DNA from: Dichomitus squalens LYAD-421 SS1
Taxonomy: Eukaryota; Basidiomycota; Agaricomycetes; Polyporales; Polyporaceae
Assembly: GCF_000275845.1 (NCBI RefSeq)
Contig: NW_006766898.1
Span: 562,751-626,750, forward strand
Direction of reading: 5' to 3'
DNA length: 64,000 bases
In this document: positions 30,820-62,809 of the stretch, piece after piece
How positions within the stretch are numbered: position 1 is the first letter of the stretch
Layout of the letters: each line of letters opens with the position of its first letter
Position numbers and translations under genes: made by a program
The notes under the pieces: generated by a model
Seen by the model: only the letters and a program-made list of their open reading frames with translations
Databases searched by the model: none
What the model was told of the DNA's origin: nothing

Positions 30820-33147
30820 ATGTCGACTTTTGTGTCCCACGTCGTCGCGGACCTCGCCCAAAAGGCCCTTCCGACAAGCGCAGCGTCCGCCAGCACCGAA
30901 CGCGTCCAAATCGCTTCATCCCAATCTAAGGAGGTTCTGCGCACCGTCTTCGTCAAGCTAGAGCAATCACAGTCTCCACAGGACATTCGGGAATGCATCG
31001 ACACGCTCCAGAATCTCGAATATCACCAACAGCTGCTCTCAGCTGAGCTGGTGGACGGAGAAGAGCAGTCTCTCCGACGCGCCATCCTCGGCAGGCTTGC
31101 GCTGGGACTGTACGGACAGGCGTTGACCACGTTCTTGGACGAAGCGAGCGAAGCAGAGGCGGAACGGCAGTGGTGGAGTGATATTGTACGGTCGCGGAGA
31201 CGAGCTGCGACGTACCTCCTGCAAAGTACGCTCCGCAACGATTCACATTATGATGCGTTCTGACGACAGATGCAGCACTTCCACTCCGCATTGTGGATGT
31301 GTCCAATGTGGTCTTGTCCACACTACGGACACGGAATATTCCCATCCACCTATCCGTGCTGAAGCCCTCCTCTCTTCGCCAACTCTTTCCGCCAACCAGC
31401 ACCCTCCGCCCGAATACACTGACTCTTGCGCTATTTCCCCATCTGCACCACGAACCATACTCCATCTCGCTCACCGGCGCCTTTCACCCGCTTTCCGCCA
31501 TTTCCATTTCTTCGTCACCTACTCGAACAGCGACGTCTGCATACAGCGCCTGCACACAAACGCTGTATGGTGTCGCCCGTGTCTGTGGCACCCTCGCAAC
31601 CCTCCCCCTAGAGCTTGCACGGAGCGAATGCTCTTTCAAGCGCAAGGAGCTCACGCGCATACGCGACGAGCGCGCCGAAGTCCTCGGGTACCTTGTCGGG
31701 CTGCGCGACAGGATCTCCGACGCACTCGAGACGGTCGACGGCGACGCAGCGCTGTTCGAGCTAGCGCAATTCGTGCATTACCTGCAGGCGGTCGTCAGCG
31801 GGCAGGAGTCTGCGCCGTACAGCGATGACGTCTCGCCGGGACGCGTGCTCGAGTCGCTGTCTTTGCTCGCAAACTTGACGCTCCCCTCCCATGCCTCTCT
31901 GCACAGCGCGGAGATCAAGACGGGAAAGCTCAGACGCCCCTCGTGGCTCACGCTCACCTGGCCCCAGCTCGTGCTCCTTCCTCCGCTGGCCTTGTATGGA
32001 ATCCGCACAGCATACGCGTCGCGCGCGACATTGGAGGAGCTTGCGCGAGACGCACTCGAGACGATGAAGGGGTTCTGGGAAGACTGGATCCTCGAGCCCC
32101 TCCGCGGAATCGTGCGCACCGTCCGTGCGGGTCGGGATGACGGCGTCATCGTCACCAAGGAGAGCGTCCGCGCCGACCTCGATGTAAGTTCAGACCCTAT
32201 CAGAAGCACGCTGGTATTGACGGCGATCCAGTCGCTAGAACGGATGACGCTCGCCCTGGCGCAGGACAAGCTGCACTACTCTTCCCCGCAGCTCGAGGCG
32301 CTCTCGCGGCAGGTGCAGATGGGCGACCTGACGGCGGTGATGCAGATATACGAGGAAGACATCAAGTCCCCGCTCAGGTCCGCGGTGCAAGGCACGCTCC
32401 TCCGGTCCTTGTTCGTCCAGGTCCAGAAGGCGAAGGTGCGCTTCCCGTCTTCCCCGCCACGCTTGTCGCGGGCTTCTCGATGATGATTGATGAATGGACG
32501 GCTGACGTCGACGGGGCTGTCCTATCGTGTACGAGCAGGTCGATATTGATATGGCGCTGTCCGGAATCGACAAGCTGCTCAAGAGCCAGGAGCTCACGTT
32601 TGCGTTCGTAGGCGTAGCGCCTGCGCTGGCCATCGTTTATGCCGCCGGCAGCTACCTGCAGCGTCTGTGGTCCGGCGGGAAGGGTCGCGGGCGGTATGGG
32701 GGCAAGGCGAAGCGCATGGGTGTTTGGGCTGCCGTGAGGTCCGTCGTCTCTCATCTTTCTTCGATGCCACGGTGCCGCCGAAAACGCTCTGTACTCGTAC
32801 TGATGATACTCATGACCGTTGTATGTAGGCGCGTCGACCGCCTGCTCACCGCCCAACCCAAACCACACTCGTCCCACACTCGACCGCATCGGGTCGCGGC
32901 CTTGCAGAAGTCTCCCGCGACGGCCGTCTCGCCGCTCACGTCAGGCCTTCTCCTGCTTTCTGTCACACAGCTGAGGAAGTACGCGGAGACGACGCTGCCG
33001 GCGAACTCTCGTCTACGCGAGGGCTTCTTGGAAGACGTGACGGATTTGGAGGACCCGGGTCTGGGCCGTGCGGACAAGCTGAGGGTGGTAGATCGGATGT
33101 GGCGGTCGTGGGGCGAGCCCTTGGGCTGGAATAGGGTAGCAGATTAA
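30820..33147 (+). CDS. nca2: NCA2, nuclear control of ATPase protein 2
   Basis: Mitochondrial membrane protein needed for expression of the mitochondrial ATP6/ATP8 transcript in yeast. The start at 30820 gives MSTFVSHVVADLAQKALPTS. A long middle part (about 31290-32185) contains the family blocks RPSWLTLTWPQLVLLPPLAL (a membrane segment), then FWEDWILEPLRGIVRTVRAG. Next come SLERMTLALAQDKL, the signature YEEDIKSPLRSAVQGTLLRS, LFVQVQKAKVDIDMALSGID and KLLKSQELTFAFVGVAPALA, a second membrane segment. The C-terminal exon has VSPLTSGLLLLSVTQLRKYA and ends PLGWNRVAD with TAA at 33147. There are four or five introns. Identification is firm. Confidence 0.92.
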
Positions 33148-41314: not shown

Positions 41315-42720
41315 ATGTTTACTTTCCTCAACGACCCCACTTTTCCCTCACTCAGCGAGGCGCACAAGCCGTTTGTCAATGAGACGGTCATGGACGTATG
41401 CGGTGTTACGTGAGTACTAGCTTCTACTGCGACGTGTAGTACCATTCTCAATCGGTTTGCCCAGACGGCCTTTTGCCGTTAGCAAACTCAGGCATAACGG
41501 CGATGTAGACATCTTAGTAGGTAGTTTGGCAATTATGTGATATTCGACGCTAACGTTCGAAACCAGGGCAGCGACGTAGACCCTATCATGGCCACCAAAG
41601 CTCTTGTGCGGGACTTCCTCGACCGACTTCCCTACACTGCCCCCTGCGTCCCGGCAGACTCGGAGCTTAGGCACGAGGTCGCAGACCTGATTGCCTCCTG
41701 GAACGCTGGCCTCAGCTGGAAGTATATCGAAGGCCTTACAGAAACCAGCTGCTCCATTGCCGAGTCAGCTTATGCACACACTAGCCACGAGCACCAGCGC
41801 ATGGTCGCCATCTACACGGCATGCCTCACCTTGGCTGACGATCTCGGGCACCACAATATGGAGGCGCTTGGGCAATTCGTTGGGCGATTCACTCGTGGGG
41901 AGCCGCAGCTGCATCCTGCCTTGGATTGCCTGGTCAAGCTACTCGGTACCCTACACGAGTTCTGTCCCCGCATCAACGCCGACGCAATCATCGCCAGCAC
42001 CGTTGATTCGGTGAGCGCGATGTACGTCGAGGTCCTTTCGCAAGGCGATGTCATCTCTCCCTTCGCGACGAAGTACCCCTTCTACTTTCGCCTCAAGACC
42101 GGTATCGCGCCGGCTTACGCTCACCTGAACTTCACGAAGAGCTGGGGGGACGACGTTGGAACTTACTATCTGCAGCTTCTTCCGTGAGAAAGCCTACTAT
42201 TCATGCTATCAGGTCTCGCAACTTACGATTCGATCAGTGAGACCGAGCTTGTGGTAGTCGGTTTCAAGTGAGTCCTTCCCTAAATGTAACTGGATAAGCG
42301 CCGAGAGCTGATAAATCTCTTGTCTGTAATCCAGCGATATGTATGTGATCCCATCCCATCCCTCTACTGCATGAGCTCAAACGACGACGTAGAATTTCGT
42401 TCTATAAGGAAACGCTCGCAGGGGAAACAGATAATTACGTCAATATGCGCGCGGCCGTGGAACAGAAACAAGCAATTTCGGTCCTCCGGCAAGTCATCGC
42501 GGAGAATTTGGACTCGGTGTACAAATTGAGGCAAATGGCTGCCCCTCAGCCAGGTCTCACGGAAATTTACCTTGGTTTCTTGATGGTCGGTAACGCAAAG
42601 AGTTGTGCAGTTGATATATTGGCTAATGGTTTGATGCATTTGCAGGGCTACGTGGAGTTCCATTTCAAGGCACGCCGATACCGGTTGCACGAGATCGTAG
42701 CGGAGGTGGACGAGCAATGA
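41315..42720 (+). CDS. TRI5-type sesquiterpene synthase B
   Basis: Class I terpene cyclase of the trichodiene-synthase fold. Modelled exons are 41315-41395, 41567-42183, 42238-42267, 42335-42340 (6 nt), 42393-42585 and 42646-42720, giving 333 residues. The Asp-rich motif is LADDLGHHN. The NSE motif is N-D-I-I-S-F-Y-K-E; its N is split over an intron and D comes wholly from the microexon CGATAT. The C-terminal R-R-Y-R-L pair is present, followed by a longer acidic tail than in the other paralogs. The exon-3 peptide is ETELVVVGFN, unlike the EHWTLGTN of A and C. The first intron (171 nt) is longer than the others and exon 1 (MFTFLNDPTFPSLSEAHKPF...) is less certain. A TATATAAG box sits about 65 bp upstream. 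Confidence 0.85.
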
Positions 42721-44167: not shown

Positions 44168-45398
44168 ATGTCTCCAATCAGTAGTAATCTTGCTACAGTC
44201 GACGAAGTTGGTGTGATCCTGTGCCCACCATCATCTTCCGCTGACCCAGTCTACTGTTTCAGATTGTCCCAGATCCCCATGTCGAGATCAAGACCCTCAT
44301 CCGTGGTTTCCTGGACGCTAGCAACTACCAGTCGCCTAGAAGCCCCCATGACGCCGAGCTTCGCAGAAAGCTCGCGGAGGAGCTGACATCCTGGCCAGCT
44401 GACATCAAGCCTGCCCTCATCGCCAAAATCATGGACGGCAGCTGCGTCTACGCCGAAACCACATACGGCCACACGACCCACGAGCACCGGTACTTCATCG
44501 CACTCTACACAGCGTGCCTCATGTATGTCGACGATCTCGGTGAACGCGACCTCGATGCCGTCATGCGGTTCACCGGTCGCTTCGCGAGAGGTGAAAAGCA
44601 GCCGGACAAAATCCTCCAGCGTCTCGCGCAACTCCTCGGGTCCGCCCACGATCTATGGACTCAATTCGGCGCAGATGCTATCATCTCCGGAACGCTTGAT
44701 GCGGTCACAGCCATGTACATCGAGTTCACCACGAAAGATATGGTGGTGAAGCCGTCGGCGACTCGCTTCCCCTACTATCTTCGCACGAGGGCTGGACTCG
44801 GTCCGCCGTACATCCATTTCATCTTCATGAAGGAGTGGCGTGCGACACCGGAGTCGTATCTGCAGGTGCTTCCGTAAGTGGCTGTTCTCGCGCGCGTCCA
44901 CCGTCTGTTAATTAATGCACCACGTCAGGGACATGGAACACTGGACGCTGGGCACCAAGTACGTGGGTCGCTGCTGTTTCTGACTCATTCTGACTGCTTC
45001 ACGGCGGTTTCTATTACAGCGATATGTGTGTATCTTTTGCAATCCGTTACGATGCCCTCGGAAGTAGCTGACGCTCCTCCCCGCAGTCTTTCCTTCTACA
45101 AGGAGGAGCTAGCGGGGGAGACCAATAACTACGTCCATCTCCGTGCGAGCGCGGAGCGGACATCAACGGAAGAGGTTTTACGTCGACTGGTTGAAGAAGT
45201 TCTGGACAGCGCACGTCGCATGGACGCCTTGACGTACGAGGATTCGAAGTTGACTGCCCTATGGCGGACGTACATGCAAGTGCGTATAACATCAGCGAGT
45301 CTGAGTCTGATGACTGACCTAATTTGCTATAGGGATACCTAGAGTTTTCACTCAGTGCGAAACGCTACCGGCTTGCCGAGTTGGGTTATCAGCCTTGA
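44168..45398 (+). CDS. TRI5-type sesquiterpene synthase C
   Basis: Same fold and exon plan as B and D. Exons are 44168-44206, 44263-44873, 44929-44958, 45020-45025 (6 nt), 45087-45279 and 45333-45398, giving 314 residues. The start at 44168 (MSPISSNLATVDE) makes a 13-codon first exon like that of D; an in-frame ATG at 44156 is the alternative. Motifs are MYVDDLGERD for the Asp-rich region, N-D-I-L-S-F-Y-K-E-E for NSE through microexon CGATAT, and KRYRLAELG at the C-terminus. Exon 3 encodes DMEHWTLGTN, nearly the same as in A, so A and C look like the closest intact pair. Intron 1 begins GTTGGT, a weak donor. Confidence 0.87.
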
Positions 45399-46080: not shown

Positions 46081-47332
46081 ATGCCCTACGCTGCTCTCGA
46101 GGACACAAACGTCACTAGCGTGAGTCTGACGATATTATCTTCGTCGTTGCCATGTGTATGTCTGACTCGTGTTGCCTTTTCAACAGAGTAACGCCGTCAG
46201 AGAGATTCTGAGCGATCTCCTCAAACGGGGCATAGTCAACCATGAACTTTCCTCAACTCCCCGACACAGGGATGATCATCTCTATGATGATATCATCGAG
46301 GAAGTGGCCGACATCTTCGCCGCCGCCGGAGACGACAAGATATTCGTCGAGAGGTTCAGTCGTACCGGCTGTGACCTGGCTCAGATCACATACGGGCACA
46401 CAAGCACCGAACACCAGCACTACATTGCCCTCTACACCGTGTGCCTCCTCTACGCAGACGACCTGGGCATCCGACACCTCGACGCTTTGACCCAGTTCGC
46501 CCGTCGCTTCTCCACAGGAGAGAAACAGCTAAACCCCGTCTTGGATAAACTCACCGAGCTTATGAGGCAGGCATATGACCTCTGGCCACAAGTCGGAGCT
46601 GACGCCATCGTGTCCGGAACTCTCGAGGCGGTATCGGCCATGTACATCGAGTGCACGAGCGGGGATATGAAGATCACCCCGCAGGCGACATTGTGGCCGA
46701 ATTATTTCCGGAACAGGTCGGGGATATGCCCTCCGTACGCTCACTTCAACTTCATGAAGAACTGGCGGTCGGCTCCGGATTCGTATCTGCAACTGCTACC
46801 GTGAGTCTCTTGCGAGTTCAGATTGCTGTCTGTGTTGAGAAGATGTTCTAGGTACCTTGAGTTCTACATCGTTGCAGCTAAGTGAGTGAGCTGTTGTAGG
46901 CATTTACAAGAATTATCACCTGACATGCAGCATCAAATCTATCCAACCAGCGATGTGTGAGTATAAGAATCCACTTTGCATTCGGGAAAAAGCCGTCTCA
47001 CGCACCGCCACGATAGCCTGTCGTTCTACAAGGAACAACTAGCTGGAGAGACAAAGAACTACATCCATATCCGGGCTACGACAGATCAAATGACGCCTGT
47101 CGACATGCTGCGCCGGGTCGCGGACGAAGTCCTCGCTTGTGGTGAACGAGTCGAACTACTCATCGGGGACGATGCGCAGTTGATGGGAATATGGCGGTCG
47201 TTTGAACACGTGCGTATACGGAAGCTGATGTAACACTGCAGGCATAGTTGCTCATGCAATTGACAGGGTGTGTTGGAGTTTCACGTGAAGACGCAACGTT
47301 ACCAGCTCGCGGGACTGACCTTCGGGTCGTGA
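46081..47332 (+). CDS. TRI5-type sesquiterpene synthase D
   Basis: Intact terpene cyclase, 315 residues. Exons are 46081-46119, 46187-46800, 46852-46881, 46951-46956 (6 nt), 47017-47209 and 47267-47332. Every junction is GT-AG and in phase. The Asp-rich motif is LYADDLGIRH; a WPNYFRNRSGICPPYAHFNF block precedes the end of exon 2; exon 3 encodes YLEFYIVAA; the NSE motif N-D-V-L-S-F-Y-K-E needs microexon CGATGT; the C-terminus has QRYQLAGL. From about 46262 onward it is almost identical, introns included, to the inverted pseudogene E, and the identity runs about 68 bp past the stop codon. Upstream of that the two are clearly related but diverged. Product unknown. Confidence 0.9.
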
Positions 47333-48094: not shown

Positions 48095-51000
48095 TTATGA
48101 AGCCGCTGCAGAGGGAGCCACGGACGATTGTGACCGACTCGCCCACGCGAAGAGTTGTCGCGGCACATCGCTGCTCGGAGGTGCCTCGGCAGACTGTTTC
48201 GGCTCGACGAGAAGACTGCGTCGATAGAGATCCTGCAGGTCTCCTTGTCGCTGGGACTTTTCAAAGGCGTCGCGCAGGTACACTTGGACCTCAGGAATCT
48301 CCTTCAGGTTATAGGGAACCTGGAAACGTTGCATATCTACGGGCGACAGCGTTAGCGACGAGCGACAGACCACTATCTGCAAGATTACCGTACCTTGTAC
48401 GATACGCGCGAGCTTGTGGTATTTGTTGAAGTTGAGGAGCTTCTTCTCAGGCGCCTTCGGTGACGTCCTGTGCGAAGGATTCCCTTCGCGGCAGAACGTT
48501 ATATCTGTCAAGTAGAGGCCTGGGTGACCGCGCGTCTCAGCATGAAAGTCGACCACAAGCGGCGCGGGACCAAACTCACCAAGGAAAGGCACCGCAGGTG
48601 GCGCGGTGTTCCGCAAGCGCGAGCGGTATTCATGGTAATTCCGCGCGTGGTCAGCAAGCTTCCGGAGCGCCTCCAGCTGCAGCTTGCTCTTCTGAGACAG
48701 ACCCTGAATGACATCACCAGTCAGCGTGCGCCCGACGCGAATCCATCTTCAGAACTCACCATCCAAGTCTGGTGCAGCCTCGCGATCGTCGACGAGTCGA
48801 GCGCGGCAAGGATGGACCGCGGCGTCGAGTAGTTCCTCAGCGAGACGCACCGGTCGCCGAGCTTGATGAAGAACTTCACGAGCGCCGTCCGCTTCTTCGT
48901 GTCCGGCTCGTTCAGGATGCTCTCCGCCACCCAGCCCGTGATCGCCGTGCTGAGCGACGTCACCGCCTTCACGCCCGCGTTCGGCGCCGCGCCCTCCTTC
49001 TTCGCGCTCGCGCCCGTCTCCAGCACCTCCTCCGGCTGGATCGCGCAGTACAGGAAGCACTCCATGACCGTCATCTGCCGCGCGAGCTCGAGCGGGTCAA
49101 AGTCCGTGATCGCGACCGCGGCAAAGTGCCGCGAGCGCAGCGCAGACAGCACCGTCTTCGTCATGATCGGCCGCGGGACCTCCGAGATCGGCCCGGGCAG
49201 CATGGGCGGGTTGAGCGGCATGCCCGCGTCGCGCGCCCTGTCGCGGTCCGCGCGCGGGCTCAGCGTGTCCGCGCTCCCCGCCGACACGCGCTGGTGGACG
49301 AGCTCGAGGATGCGCTGGGACGGCCCGGGGAACATCGCGGATAGCGCGTCCTTGATGAACGAGACCAGCGTCGGGACGACGACCGCGTCCGTCGCGTGCC
49401 GCCAGTACGTCTCCACCCACGTCTTGATGAAGTTGCTCACGCGCAGGCGCACGGGGAGGCCCTTGCGCTGCTGCCACAGGCGCAGGTCGGCGTCCGCGAG
49501 CCCTGGCGGCGGGAGGATGTTGTAGCGCGCGATGACCGCGTCGAGGAGCTCCGCCGGGGTCGTGAACAGGCGGAAGGTCATGAAGAACACCGCCGCGAAC
49601 GGCGGCTCGACGAGCGCGTCGTGGGGCGTCATGCGTTCCACCAGCGCCTCGAGCGTCGCGCCCACGAGCTGCCCGTCCGAGTTGTACGCGACGTCTTCGG
49701 GGGCATGGTCGTGAGGGAACGTCCACGGCAGCACCGCCGCGCCAAACGGGTGGGCCCCAGAAACGGCCGGGAGCTCCCCGCTGAGGAGCTGCTGCTCGAA
49801 CGACGTCGTGCTCGGAGCGGCGCCGTGGCGTTGGCTGCCCTCCCACGTCGTCCTATCGTCCTCCGTGGGTGCGTACGAGTTTAGCGACATCGCATCCGAA
49901 CGAAGCGTCGCCCTGTCGAGCGACGGGCGCGGCTCCGGCAGGGGCTTCTCTGCAAGAATGGGGGAGACGACGCTCGGCGTCACCGGCGTAGGCAGCTCGC
50001 TCTCGACGCCTCCATCCCCATCTGCACCAAGTGAGGGCGAGGGCGGAAGCGACGGAGGCTCCTCGATGACAGGAATGGCCTCGCCCTTCACCCTCAGCGT
50101 ATGCTCCTCCCCGTCCACGCCCTGCGCCTGGATCGTCAGGTCCTCCTCCTCCCCATCGCCCTCGCCCTCCACATACAGCCCGCGCACCGCCTGCAAACTG
50201 CTCTCCCTGCGTATCCTCGGCCCGCCGCTGCCTCCTCCGCTCTTCGTCCCGCTCCTCGCACTCGCCGTCGACGCGCTGTGCGCATGCCCGTGCCCGAACT
50301 TCCTTGGGGTGTACACCCCGCCCTCCGGGTCCCCGGGCGCAGGCAGCACGAACACGAACGGGCGCTCGCCCGCCGACGCCGCGCGCTGCACGCAGCGCTT
50401 CACCGCGTTCACGCAGTCCGAGCCCGCCCTGAGCGCGTCCGTCGCGCACCGCAGCAGGCCCTCCTTCTCCGCCTCCTCCGACACGCCGTCCGCAGGCGGC
50501 GCGGTGAGCACGCGCACCGAGTCCGCGAGCGTGCTCGCGACGGCGTACAGGCCCTCCTTCGCCGCGCGCACGCCCTCCGCGCGCGCGGGCGGCATGTCCG
50601 GGTGGCGCAGGACGGCGTCGACGAGCGTGAGCAGCCGGCAGACGACGTCGACGACCTCGCGCACGAGGTCGTACATGTGGCCCGTGCTCGCCGCGTGCGA
50701 GCGGCGCGAGTGCGAGTGCGCGTGCCCGATGAACGCCGCGATCGTGGACAGGAAGCTGTCGTGCGTGTACCGCAGCGCGTCCGTGAGCTCCGCGGCCGTC
50801 GCGGGCCCCGAGGGGAAGACGGGCGTCGCGGGCGTGCCGACCGAGTCGCTCGAGAACGACGACGACGATGACGACGACGAGTAGTTGCTGCTCACCGAGT
50901 CCTGCATCGGCCGGTGGTGCTGCCGCGGCGTGCTCTCGCTGAACACCCTCCGCGCGGGCGACGCGAGCTGCTGCTCGGACAGCTTCCGTTGCGGGATCCT

Positions 51001-53503
51001 CAGGGTTCCGGCGGGCACAGGTGGGTAGTCGGCTCCCATCGCAGCCCGTTTCGGGATCTTGAGGTCGCCCAAGCTCTTCGGCCTCGACGGCGTATTCGCG
51101 GCGTCTGTCATCCGCCTCGCCCTCGTCGCGATGCCGTTGCTAGTCCGGCCGGGCGTCGCGAAGTGGTCCTCGCCCATCTCGCCCGCTCCCCAGCGCCCCT
51201 GCCCCTGCGAAGACTCCGCGTCGGCACTGCGCACGGGACGCGCTGCGGCCGCCGAGGGCAGGTTCACGCCGCACTGCACGGCGACGGCAAGGAAGCCGCG
51301 CACGTGCGCGAACAGCTGCCCCGCAAGGCGCACCATTCCCTGCACCTCCATGTCGCGCGTCTCCTCGGAGATGCCGGCCGTCCCTTCGTCGGACGCGCGC
51401 TTCGCCTGCGAGACGAGCGACGCGAGGTCGGAGAGGATGCGTTTGCGCTCCTGCGCGAGCACGCCGTGCTGCTTCAGCACGGGCGCGTCCCGCGAGAGGC
51501 AGCCGATCTCGGACAGGAGGGCGCGGACGCACGATATGATGCACGCGGTTGCGGGCTGGAAGTGGTGTACGCGATTCATGCGCACGGCGTTTTGAAGCAG
51601 AGAGAGTGCGCGGAGGAGGGGCAGCATGAGCGGGGGGCAGTACATGTCGATGGTGGGGCCAAACGAGTCCGCTGCTGTTGGCCGGTGGTTGTTGCGGGGG
51701 AAGGTGGCTTTGCCTTTCTGTGAGACGTTGCTCGCCCAGGACGTCGTCGACGACACGGACATGTTGTGTTTGTGGCCGGGTCGAGAGTTCTACAGGGCGG
51801 GAAACCTCATGGTCAGTATTTTTGTCCGCGGGCGTTTAGGATGGCCATGCTTCCAATAGCATTGCACGTAAAGTTAGATGGTAACAACCCGACGCCGCCG
51901 CCGTGGCAGAAGTCCGTGTAAGAAGCCCACAGACGACCGTGCAGAACATGCTCATGATTCACAGGGCTGACATGCGATCCCGATGAACACTGGACTTGTG
52001 ATTGCATCGGGATGCTTGTTGTGCCTCCGTCTTCGATGACCTCATAAAGCATCATGCAGACAACGCCGCAATCGAAGTCGGAGCAAACGAATGATGATAT
52101 GACCCCCCACAACAGGTGGACCATCCAGTTCCACTCTCCCGGCATTCTCAGCGGATTGGATGGTCCGAAACCGGAAGACTTGACTCAAAACTGCAAAGAT
52201 GCCGGAAATCTTGTCCGGACATCCCAACCCCACTTTACCTGAGGCAAGATCAAAACCCAGATAGCTGAGCTCCAGAAAGCCGACGGTCTGTTAGCTACTC
52301 AGCAGCGATGTGGGCATGCACAGTAGGGAAAATGGGCTTGGACCCGAAGTGCGGACGCTCGAAGACAAAACGGGCCTCAAAATCCGGACATTTCGGGTCT
52401 CCCGCTCCACGACAGGATCTGGCTTCGCCACCGATCCTCTGCTGATGAGGGGCGTAGCAACACGAAATATTCCCCAGAAGCTCGTGTTCCCGCCCAGTGA
52501 GCGCGGCCAACTAACGCGGAAAGGTTCTGATCCGCTGGATAGAGAATCAAACTTTTCATACGCAATCGGCATATGCCCAGACATGTGCGGAGTTTGGCGC
52601 CGGGCATTCAAACACACGGTAGACAACGCAAGATCTGCCCGGCGAGAAGTCGATGAGGGGAGACATAGGAGAAGGCGGCGTTTCCGGGAAGAAAAACACC
52701 GTTCACCAAGGGTAGGCAGTTGCCTACTGCAGCTCATCGTCGTCGACCGCAGACGCCGTGACAGCTGCACGGTCGACCCGCATTCTCAACACGGCTTCAG
52801 CGACGGCGGCAATGACAGATCCAGCAAATTCAACAACAAGCACGACGTCACGACGAGCGATCGCACGCATCGAGAACGGAAAGAAGAAACCGGTAAGGAC
52901 ACACACCTTCGCGCCCGGGAGCTCTTCCTCCGTGAGCAGCCCGACCTCGGCGGTGACATAGTTGCTCGGGAACCAGCCCCGCCTGCCGTCAAGCTCGCCG
53001 TCCCACCAGCCGCTCTGGTCGCGGTTGAGGACGTGGATGACCTGGCCCGCGCGGAAGCTGAGGCAGGTCGCGTTCGGCTGCTGGGGAGAAAAGTCGTGCA
53101 TGGCGAGCACGTAGTCGTCCGTGCTGCCGCCGCCGATGGCCTCGTCTTCGGAGCCGGAGTCGGTCATCATCGTCCACGCGGAGGGGCCGCTTGGGCGGGC
53201 AGAAGAAGTAGACGAAGACGCGGGGGCGGACGCGGATGTTGGAGTAGATGGGCCAGGACGGCGGGGGGAGCGGGCGGAAAGGTGTGATGCGCTCGAGGGA
53301 GCACGGGATGCTGCAGAGGTGGGGGAGGATGCGGAGGAGGGGCTGCGGAGGCGACTGGTGAAGCTAGCGTTGCTGCGGGCGGAGAGGGGGGTGCGGGGCA
53401 GCCCTGGGCTTAGGCCATCGCGGGAGGAGTGTGTTCGGCTGGAGGAAGGGTTGGCAGAGGCGGTTATTGAGGTGTCGATTCTGAGATGTGTGGTGGGAGG
53501 CAT
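48095..53503 (-). CDS. SH3-domain Ras guanine nucleotide exchange factor (CDC25-like)
   Basis: Activates Ras by GDP-GTP exchange at the membrane. The first exon (53503 down to 52907) is Ser-rich and then carries an SH3 domain: DDYVLAMHDFSPQQPNATCL, GQVIHVLNRDQSGWWDGELD and RRGWFPSNYV. A 1117-bp intron follows (52906-51790), far longer than any other here. The main exon continues NSRPGHKHNMSVSS, with DMYCPPLMLPLLRALSLLQN, a poly-Ser tract, the RasGEF-N domain (LVGATLEALVERMTPHDALV, FFMTFRLFTTPAELLDAVIA) and the start of the catalytic domain (LELARQMTVMECFLYCAIQP). Three or four C-terminal exons finish it (FLGLYLTDITFCREGNPSH, NFNKYHKLARIVQ, IPEVQVYLRDAF). A single gene is inferred from domain order. 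Confidence 0.85.
51790..52906 (-). other. Unusually long intron (1117 bp) in the RasGEF gene
   Basis: The donor GTGTGT follows the SH3 exon codons for P-G-A-K, and the acceptor CCCTGTAG precedes N-S-R-P-G-H-K. Other introns of the gene are about 50-90 nt. The interior has ORFs on both strands without a domain and no obvious terminal repeats, so it may hold an eroded insertion. Confidence 0.5.
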
Positions 53504-61310: not shown

Positions 61311-62450
61311 GTGTTGCCTTCATTGACGAATGACGGAATACACGCTGCATACATATGCCAGCAAATAGCTCACGACCCGAAGGTCAGTCCCGCGAGCTGG
61401 TAACGTTGCGTCTTCACGTGAAACCCCAACACACCCTGTCAATTGCATGAGCAACTATGCCTGCAGTGTTACATCAGCTTCCGTATACGCAAGTGTTCGA
61501 ACGACCGCCATATTCTCATCAACTGCGCATCGTCCCCGATGAGTAGTTCGACTCGTTCACCACAAGCGAGGACTTCGTCCGCGACCCGGCGCAGCATGTC
61601 GACAGGCGTCATTTGATCTGTCGTAGCCCGGATATGGATGTAGTTCTTTGTCTCTCCAGCTAGTTGTTCCTTGTAGAACGACAGGCTATCGTGGCGGTGC
61701 GTGAGACGGCTTTTTCCCGAATGCAAAGTGGATTCTTATACTCACACATCGCTGGTTGGATAGATTTGATGCTGCATGTCAGGTGATAATTCTTGTAAAT
61801 GCCTACAACAGTTCACTCACTTAGCTGCAACGATGTAGAACTCAAGGTACCTAGAACATCTTCTCAACACAGACAGCAATGTGAACTCGCAAGAGACTCA
61901 CGGTAGCAGTTGCAGATACGAATCCGGAGCCGACCGCCAGTTCTTCACGAAGTTGAAGTGAGCGTACGGAGGGCAAATCCCCGACCTGTTCCGGAAATAA
62001 TTCGGCCACAATGTCGCCTGCGGGGTGATCTTCATATCCCCGCTCGTGCACTCGATGTACATGGCCGATACCGCCTCGAGAGTTCCGGAAACGATGGCGT
62101 CAGCTCCGACTTGTGGCCAGAGGTCATATGCCTGCCTCATAAGCTCGGTGAGTTTATTCAAGACGGGGTTTAGCTGTTTCTCTCCTGTGGAGAAGCGACG
62201 GGAGAACTGGGTTAAAGCGTCGAGGTGTCGGATGCCCAGGTCGTCCGCGTAGAGGAGGCACACGGTGTAGAGGGCAATGTAGTGCTGGTGTTCGGTGCTT
62301 GTGTGCCCGTATGTGATCTGAGCAGCCGGTACGACTGAACCTCTCGACGAATATCTTGTCGTCTCCGGCGGCGGCGAAGAGGTCGGCCACTTCCTTGATG
62401 ATATCATCATAGAGATGATCATCCTTGTGTCGCAGAATTGAGTGACGTGC
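61311..62450 (-). repeat. Inverted repeat arm 2 (synthase E side)
   Basis: Reverse-complement partner of 46262-47400. The boundary near 61311 is sharp: the shared sequence ends at TGTGTTGCCTT, about 55 bp from the PIG-U stop. Confidence 0.85.
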
Positions 62451-62629
62451 GTGTTTATTGGCCATGCCCCGTTTCAGGAAGTCGCTTAGAATATCCCTGA
62501 CGTCGTGATGAGGTTCGGCGACACTCTGTTGAGGCACGGCGCTTGTGTCAGGAATACACACGGCGACGAAGAAATGATCTTCGAACTCACGCTAGTAATG
62601 TTTTTGCCCGCTGGAGCAGCGTATGTCAT
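61370..62629 (-). pseudogene. Terpene synthase E, broken inverted copy of D
   Basis: Same exon plan as D on the opposite strand, with a start-like ATG at 62629 and stop at 61370. Two lesions are seen. First, at about 62320-62327 eight bases present in D (GTGACCTG) are missing between short GGCT/GCT repeats, shifting the frame inside exon 2 just after the ERFSRTGC block and before the Asp-rich motif. Second, the intron-5 donor is changed: D has CAC|GTGCGT, E reads CAC|TTGCGT (position 61492), so that intron could not be spliced normally. The microexon CGATGT at 61746-61751 and other sites are intact. The promoter keeps a TATATAAAT box at 62777-62785. The decay looks recent because the rest is nearly identical to D. 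Confidence 0.85.
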
Positions 62630-62809
62630 GGATGGGAACGTCGGCCTAGCCGTAGACAATCGGTGGATTTGGTCCTGAAAGGGATACAGTGACTATGATG
62701 TGAGATGGTGAAACGTAGGATGCCCGGTACTCGCGGTTGTCTGTGCGATGTTAGTGTTGGTGGAGCCACAAGGTTCATTTATATAATTCCAGGGTACACC
62801 ATAGGCGCC

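Follow-up and report, generated by a model that had tools for sequence, protein, structure and literature searches.

The window analysed here, a 64,000-nt stretch of the genome of Dichomitus squalens LYAD-421 SS1 (Polyporaceae, Polyporales), contains four TRI5-like genes (A to D) and a broken near-copy of gene D (gene E; Table 1). The models of genes A to D run from ATG to stop without interruption, and TRI5 (PF06330) is the sole Pfam family that the four scanned proteins match at E <= 0.001 (70.0, 58.4, 64.2, and 39.3 bits for A, B, C, and D, respectively, with a cut-off of 25.2). Residues 76-320 of the gene C product (245 residues) are identical to the public protein P0062 from the same strain. 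In a search of the 40.3-Mb genome, the matches listed included one TRI5-type gene outside the window, which is a lower bound. This sixth gene (F) lies on another contig (L026), and its product is identical over 298 residues to the public protein P0050, also from D. squalens LYAD-421 SS1. The aspartate-rich motif at the DDxxD/E position reads DDLGH in B, DDLGE in C, DDLGI in D, and EDVGG in A, and the relaxed forms DDLGE, DDLGG, and DDLPG are tabulated for active members in Table 2 of PMC10608071. Genes A to D are TRI5-family class I sesquiterpene synthases of a polyporoid mushroom, with their activity being predicted. The window's end is also the end of its contig. A Pfam scan of ten large open reading frames of the window for context gave three matches, NCA2, RasGEF, and SH3 (31293-32483, 48721-51762, 52724-53503), none of them an obvious terpene-tailoring enzyme.

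Table 1. Positions of the TRI5-type genes of the window and of the exons and introns around their NSE motif; the gene F microexon is numbered on contig L026.
Feature	Position	Strand	Description
Gene A, TRI5-like, 326 aa	7812..9099	-	Gene model and Pfam TRI5
Gene B, TRI5-like, 333 aa	41315..42720	+	Gene model and Pfam TRI5
Gene C, TRI5-like, 320 aa	44156..45398	+	Gene model and Pfam TRI5
Gene D, TRI5-like sesquiterpene synthase (predicted), six exons, 315 aa	46081..47332	+	Gene model and Pfam TRI5
Gene E, broken near-copy of D	61370..62630, ends approximate	-	Comparison with D
Gene A microexon TGACAT	8198-8193	-	Introns of 62 and 55 nt
Gene B microexon CGATAT	42335-42340	+	Introns of 67 and 52 nt
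Gene C microexon CGATAT	45020-45025	+	Introns of 61 and 61 nt
Gene D 30-nt exon	46852..46881	+	5' of the microexon
Gene D upstream intron	46882-46950	+	69 nt
Gene D microexon CGATGT	46951..46956	+	Last base of Asn, Asp, and first two bases of Val in NDVLSFYKE; splice context CAG-CGATGT-GTGAGT
Gene D downstream intron	46957-47016	+	60 nt
Gene D 193-nt exon	47017..47209	+	3' of the microexon
Gene E microexon CGATGT	61751-61746	-	In the broken near-copy of D; introns of 69 and 60 nt
Gene F microexon CGACCT	L026 1812-1817

The exons around the NSE motif measure 30, 6, and 193 nt in all five TRI5 genes of the window. The first-pass annotation had described exactly this arrangement in A to E, and the ranges it gave for D (46852-47209), C (44929-45279), B (42238-42585), and A (8290-7945) are exact to the nucleotide; none was offered for E. 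All ten introns flanking the microexons of genes A to E are of the GT-AG type and 52-69 nt long. Gene F, with exons of 602, 30, 6, 193, and 66 nt downstream of an unmodelled start, repeats the layout with GT-AG introns on both sides, bringing the total to six of six genes. The donors that follow the microexon are GTGGGC in A, GTATGT in B, GTGTGT in C, and GTGAGT in D, and a CTNAY branch-like site is present in nine of the ten flanking introns of A to D and F, which all measure 52-69 nt, the downstream intron of gene B having none. In gene D, the intron before the microexon contains a TGACAT that might pass for a second candidate exon; it was rejected, since it lacks a preceding AG and belongs to a branch-like CTGAC. 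A microexon-like CCCAG-CGATGC-GAGG without a GT donor occurs in the corresponding intron of gene F (L026, approximately 1772-1786) and is either a relic or a chance occurrence.

The 30-nt exon has AA as its last two bases, and the 193-nt exon opens with the third base of a codon; the 6 nt thus provide the last base of Asn, the whole Asp codon, and two bases of the next codon. An earlier reading of these 6 nt as supplying the rest of Asn and all of Asp was correct on both residues and left out the two bases of the following one. The microexon sequences vary at wobble positions and always encode Asn-Asp-(I/V/L), and the pattern NDxxSxxxE arises only with the 6 nt included, giving NDILSFYKE in A and C, NDIISFYKE in B, NDVLSFYKE in D, and NDLLSFYKE in F. 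When a close relative, P0051, is aligned with trichodiene synthase (1jfa), the motif Asn falls on N225, and CLM1 and SydA align at the NSE motif as well. N225, S229, and E233 of trichodiene synthase are Mg-binding residues. Structures of the mutants N225D and N225D/S229T are listed in the PDB. The predicted structure of P0051 (mean pLDDT 89.7) has the class I terpene synthase fold, with SydA, CLM1, and trichodiene synthase as the closest solved folds, and Asn235 lies within a single helix (221-245). In A to E, a transcript without the 6 nt would stay in frame and encode a protein two residues shorter, with an additional change of Asn to Lys in gene B; the frame is likewise kept in gene F, and hence in all five genes tested for this (A to D and F). 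The expectation that skipping would be in frame, cost exactly two residues, and spoil the motif was therefore borne out in the five window genes. Judging from the structural model, a two-residue loss inside the helix would rotate the remainder by approximately 200 degrees and would probably be fatal to the enzyme.

How many independent cases the window offers depends on gene E. It shares 96.3% identity with D over 1.2 kb, introns included, but its large exon has an 8-nt deletion and its last donor reads TT instead of GT. As a near-identical and broken gene, it is not an independent case. The proteins of A, B, C, D, and F are only 39-54% identical to one another, and the window therefore represents four diverged lineages; the claim that all five paralogs share the microexon holds for the layout, but the fifth is a broken copy of the fourth. 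Gene E is inverted relative to D, lies approximately 14 kb from it, and is a recent near-copy. The public model resembling it, P0002, begins in the shifted frame and runs past the defective donor.

DNA was read in one genome, and other species were judged from public protein models. Protein searches, some of them restricted in scoring to the candidates with the most words in common, yielded 136 distinct public proteins. The near set (n = 89) comprises 62 models that cover the motif and 27 that do not. ND is present in 38 of the 62, exactly two residues are missing in 16, and eight are otherwise disrupted at the same spot. In the distant set (n = 47), 42 models cover the motif and five do not; 41 of the 42 are intact, one (P0135) is disrupted in another way, and none has the two-residue deletion. 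The difference in this deletion between the near and the distant set (16/62 vs. 0/42, Fisher p 0.00014) treats kin as independent and spans different annotators, and is only suggestive. Within an alignment of 61 near-family proteins and the five genes, 16 of the 20 internal two-residue gaps fall on the microexon site, and three of the five twelve-residue gaps, the length encoded by 30 + 6 nt, fall on the 30-nt and 6-nt exons (P0084 and five distant rows being left out of the gap count). Overlooking a 6-nt exon would produce exactly such a scar, and we therefore read the 16 deletions as probable footprints of the microexon. By name, the footprint rows come from 12 species, such as Ganoderma leucocontextum and Epithele typhae (both Polyporales).

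In a tree built without P0084 and rows shorter than 230 aa, one clade of 66 rows (support 100/99) contains the 16 footprint rows, seven of the eight disrupted near-family rows (the eighth being P0084), and all five genes read from DNA. If the root lies outside this clade, its first split sets gene F and three relatives apart from the remaining 62 rows. The microexon is verified from DNA on both sides of the split, and the layout would therefore be at least as old as the clade. This position, together with the sharing of the layout by such diverged proteins, supports the first-pass view that the microexon is old. Outside the 66-row clade, the protein models suggest that the layout is lacking. 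The footprint labels are not clustered on the tree beyond shuffling (198 of 500 shuffles were as low), which is what scattered annotation errors would give. The public protein P0054, named as Tulasnella sp. 403, groups with P0053 of Grifola frondosa and gene F in the polyporoid clade (100/99). We take this to be far from the expected position of Tulasnella, and it presumably reflects contamination or horizontal transfer.

Tiny exons are easily invented by eye, and the flanking exons could be joined at other sites, with the 6-mer a chance match. We consider this extremely improbable. When the sequence separating the 30-nt exon from the 193-nt exon was subjected to 5000 dinucleotide shuffles, AG-YGAYNT-GT with introns of 45 nt or more on both sides appeared in four (A), eight (B), six (C), four (D), and eight (F) of them, a chance of approximately 0.1% per gene across five diverged genes. 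A search of all GT-AG paths of one to three introns (each at least 40 nt) for those restoring [ND]DxxSFYKE in frame returned 21 paths (A, 4; B, 2; C, 1; D, 6; F, 2; E, 6), every one of which uses the 6 nt. Transcripts joining the flanking exons elsewhere and still encoding a functional motif had been named beforehand as what would speak against the microexon, and among these paths none of the six genes offers one. In addition, the public models of C (P0062) and F (P0050) include the microexon. The 16 deletions, for their part, could in principle be genuine skipped isoforms or losses and not missed exons, in which case the trait would be patchy and some natural copies would be inactive. That exactly this deletion recurs in so many near-family models favours such true exon-less variants, but tree neighbours differ in it (P0058 is intact and P0060 deleted, and P0005/P0006 and P0064/P0070 form further pairs), and the deletions are scattered over the tree and confined to one site, as missed exons would give. 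Moreover, the D. squalens model P0072 lacks the exon, although the DNA of the nearly identical gene A has it. Real loss is thus very unlikely as the general explanation.

Whether inclusion of the 6 nt is regulated is a separate question. The first-pass annotation proposed an on/off switch, in which regulated inclusion would yield either an active synthase or a full-length dead protein. Skipping is in frame in every gene tested and intron retention is not, and two small exons elsewhere provide precedents: the 9-bp mini-exon of plant invertase is described as alternatively spliced in cold-stressed potato (PMC3340406), and the 20-nt Xlr2 microexon of Trichoderma virens as glucose-dependent (PMC11121469), as far as the available portions of these papers go. 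Papers on cDNAs of such genes, in the parts accessible, also mention immature or incorrectly spliced transcripts, among them Masunaga et al. (PMC9948225), who report some incorrectly spliced cDNAs; splicing here may therefore not be tight. However, the 6-nt length alone makes in-frame skipping expected, the donors of A to D give no sign of a weak site, and for the exon to be skipped, 123-135 nt would have to be removed as one intron, about double the usual length. With short flanking introns that nearly all carry a CTNAY site, the proposed switch found no support in the gene structure, and we regard it as unlikely. An equally low probability attaches to its broader form, a clade-wide tuning of microexon inclusion by growth conditions that would shift production from active synthase to full-length dead protein.

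We consider it very probable that the microexon is obligatory, constitutively spliced, and required for a working enzyme, in a manner comparable to the plant invertase mini-exon. According to this model, two short introns lying 6 nt apart would cut the NSE motif and leave the microexon between them. As 6 nt are too few for the factors of both splice sites to bind at once, the two introns would probably be spliced out in succession through ordinary intron definition. Inclusion would be constitutive and needed for an active enzyme, and skipping, if it occurs, would be an occasional error giving a full-length protein with an NSE helix two residues short, which is probably inactive. Retaining either intron would lead to an early stop, and conceptual retention of either one does give a stop in all five genes tested (A to D and F). 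The ancestor of a polyporoid synthase clade would already have had the intron pair. A Trametes versicolor protein, P0027, has DDLPG and NDLLSFYKE and thus the residues that the microexon encodes; the tables of PMC10608071 list TvSTS-16 with the same two motifs, and we match P0027 to TvSTS-16 on this basis. The accessible text of Masunaga et al. describes full-length cDNAs obtained by RT-PCR and lists what TvSTS-14 and TvSTS-16 produce in yeast (PMC9948225).

Introns also cut the NSE motif in a second terpene synthase family of the same genome. The 24 exon matches to PF19086 resolve into 13 loci, all of which were examined (L001-L008, L028, L030, L031, L029, and L032). The motif region could be read in all but L029 and L032. 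In nine of the 13, a phase 0 intron interrupts the motif precisely at the boundary of its Asn and Asp codons (AAY/GT...AG/GAY); in two more, L006 and L031, an acceptor immediately precedes the Asp codon. The first microexon intron of the TRI5 genes sits one base earlier (AA/Y). The PF19086 synthases thus resemble the TRI5 genes in having the same motif cut by an intron, one base off, but differ in that the intron is single and in phase 0, with no microexon seen. Either the NSE motif attracts introns, or an old intron shifted its position by a single base and was joined by a newly gained one 6 nt further downstream.

Microexons coding part of a catalytic motif are already known as a kind. As described in the parts of PMC3340406 and PMC4579127 available, the 9-bp mini-exon of plant acid invertases and fructosyltransferases (DPN of NDPNG) is likewise conserved across its family, placed in the middle of an essential motif, and skipped in frame. 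It differs in belonging to an unrelated enzyme family in another kingdom, in being 9 instead of 6 nt long, and in the skipping in the cold reported for potato. Homology of these synthases to GH32 invertases did not emerge from the Pfam scan at E <= 0.001, in which TRI5 was the sole match, and the resemblance is one of arrangement, not kinship. The Xlr2 microexon, as presented in the accessible part of PMC11121469, is also a short exon of a filamentous fungus that is conserved within its genus and missed by most gene models, but it measures 20 nt, belongs to a transcription factor of an ascomycete, and has a glucose dependence established by RNA-seq. Closer in phylogeny are the P450 genes of Phanerochaete chrysosporium, a white-rot polypore, for which predicted exons down to 6 bp, short introns, and roles in secondary metabolism are described in PMC1184071; the available text of that paper states no tie to one catalytic motif or to a fixed position among paralogs. 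Longiborneol synthase (CLM1), SydA, trichodiene synthase, TvSTS-14, TvSTS-16, and GS11330 share the family, the fold, and ND[ILV]xSFYKE (tables of PMC10608071), and differ in that the literature covered, part of it as partial text, mentions no microexon for them; the words "exon" and "intron" are absent from the main text of PMC10608071. Among open-licence literature, in part seen as partial texts, we found no report of a microexon in the TRI5 NSE motif, which is weak evidence of absence.

The microexon is thus a real, conserved, and useful feature of gene structure that codes for part of a catalytic motif. Its practical consequences lie in annotation: the motif is broken at the microexon site in 24 of the 62 near-family public models that cover it, approximately two in five. 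The first-pass annotation expected gene predictors usually to miss the exon; they often do, but not usually, with 38 models intact. In P0072, the 30-nt exon is missing as well as the 6-nt one. Such broken models give the enzymes the appearance of inactivity in databases, and synthetic genes designed from them would probably fail. The fixed 30/6/193 layout offers annotators of polypore genomes a simple check. Should inclusion prove to be tuned across the clade, unlikely as this is, these genes would be a fungal parallel to the mini-exon of plant invertases, with splicing alone controlling enzyme activity. They also offer a compact and clean system in which to ask how a spliceosome working on short introns deals with an exon too short for both of its sites to be bound together, and why two terpene synthase families of the same genome both have introns in the NSE motif.
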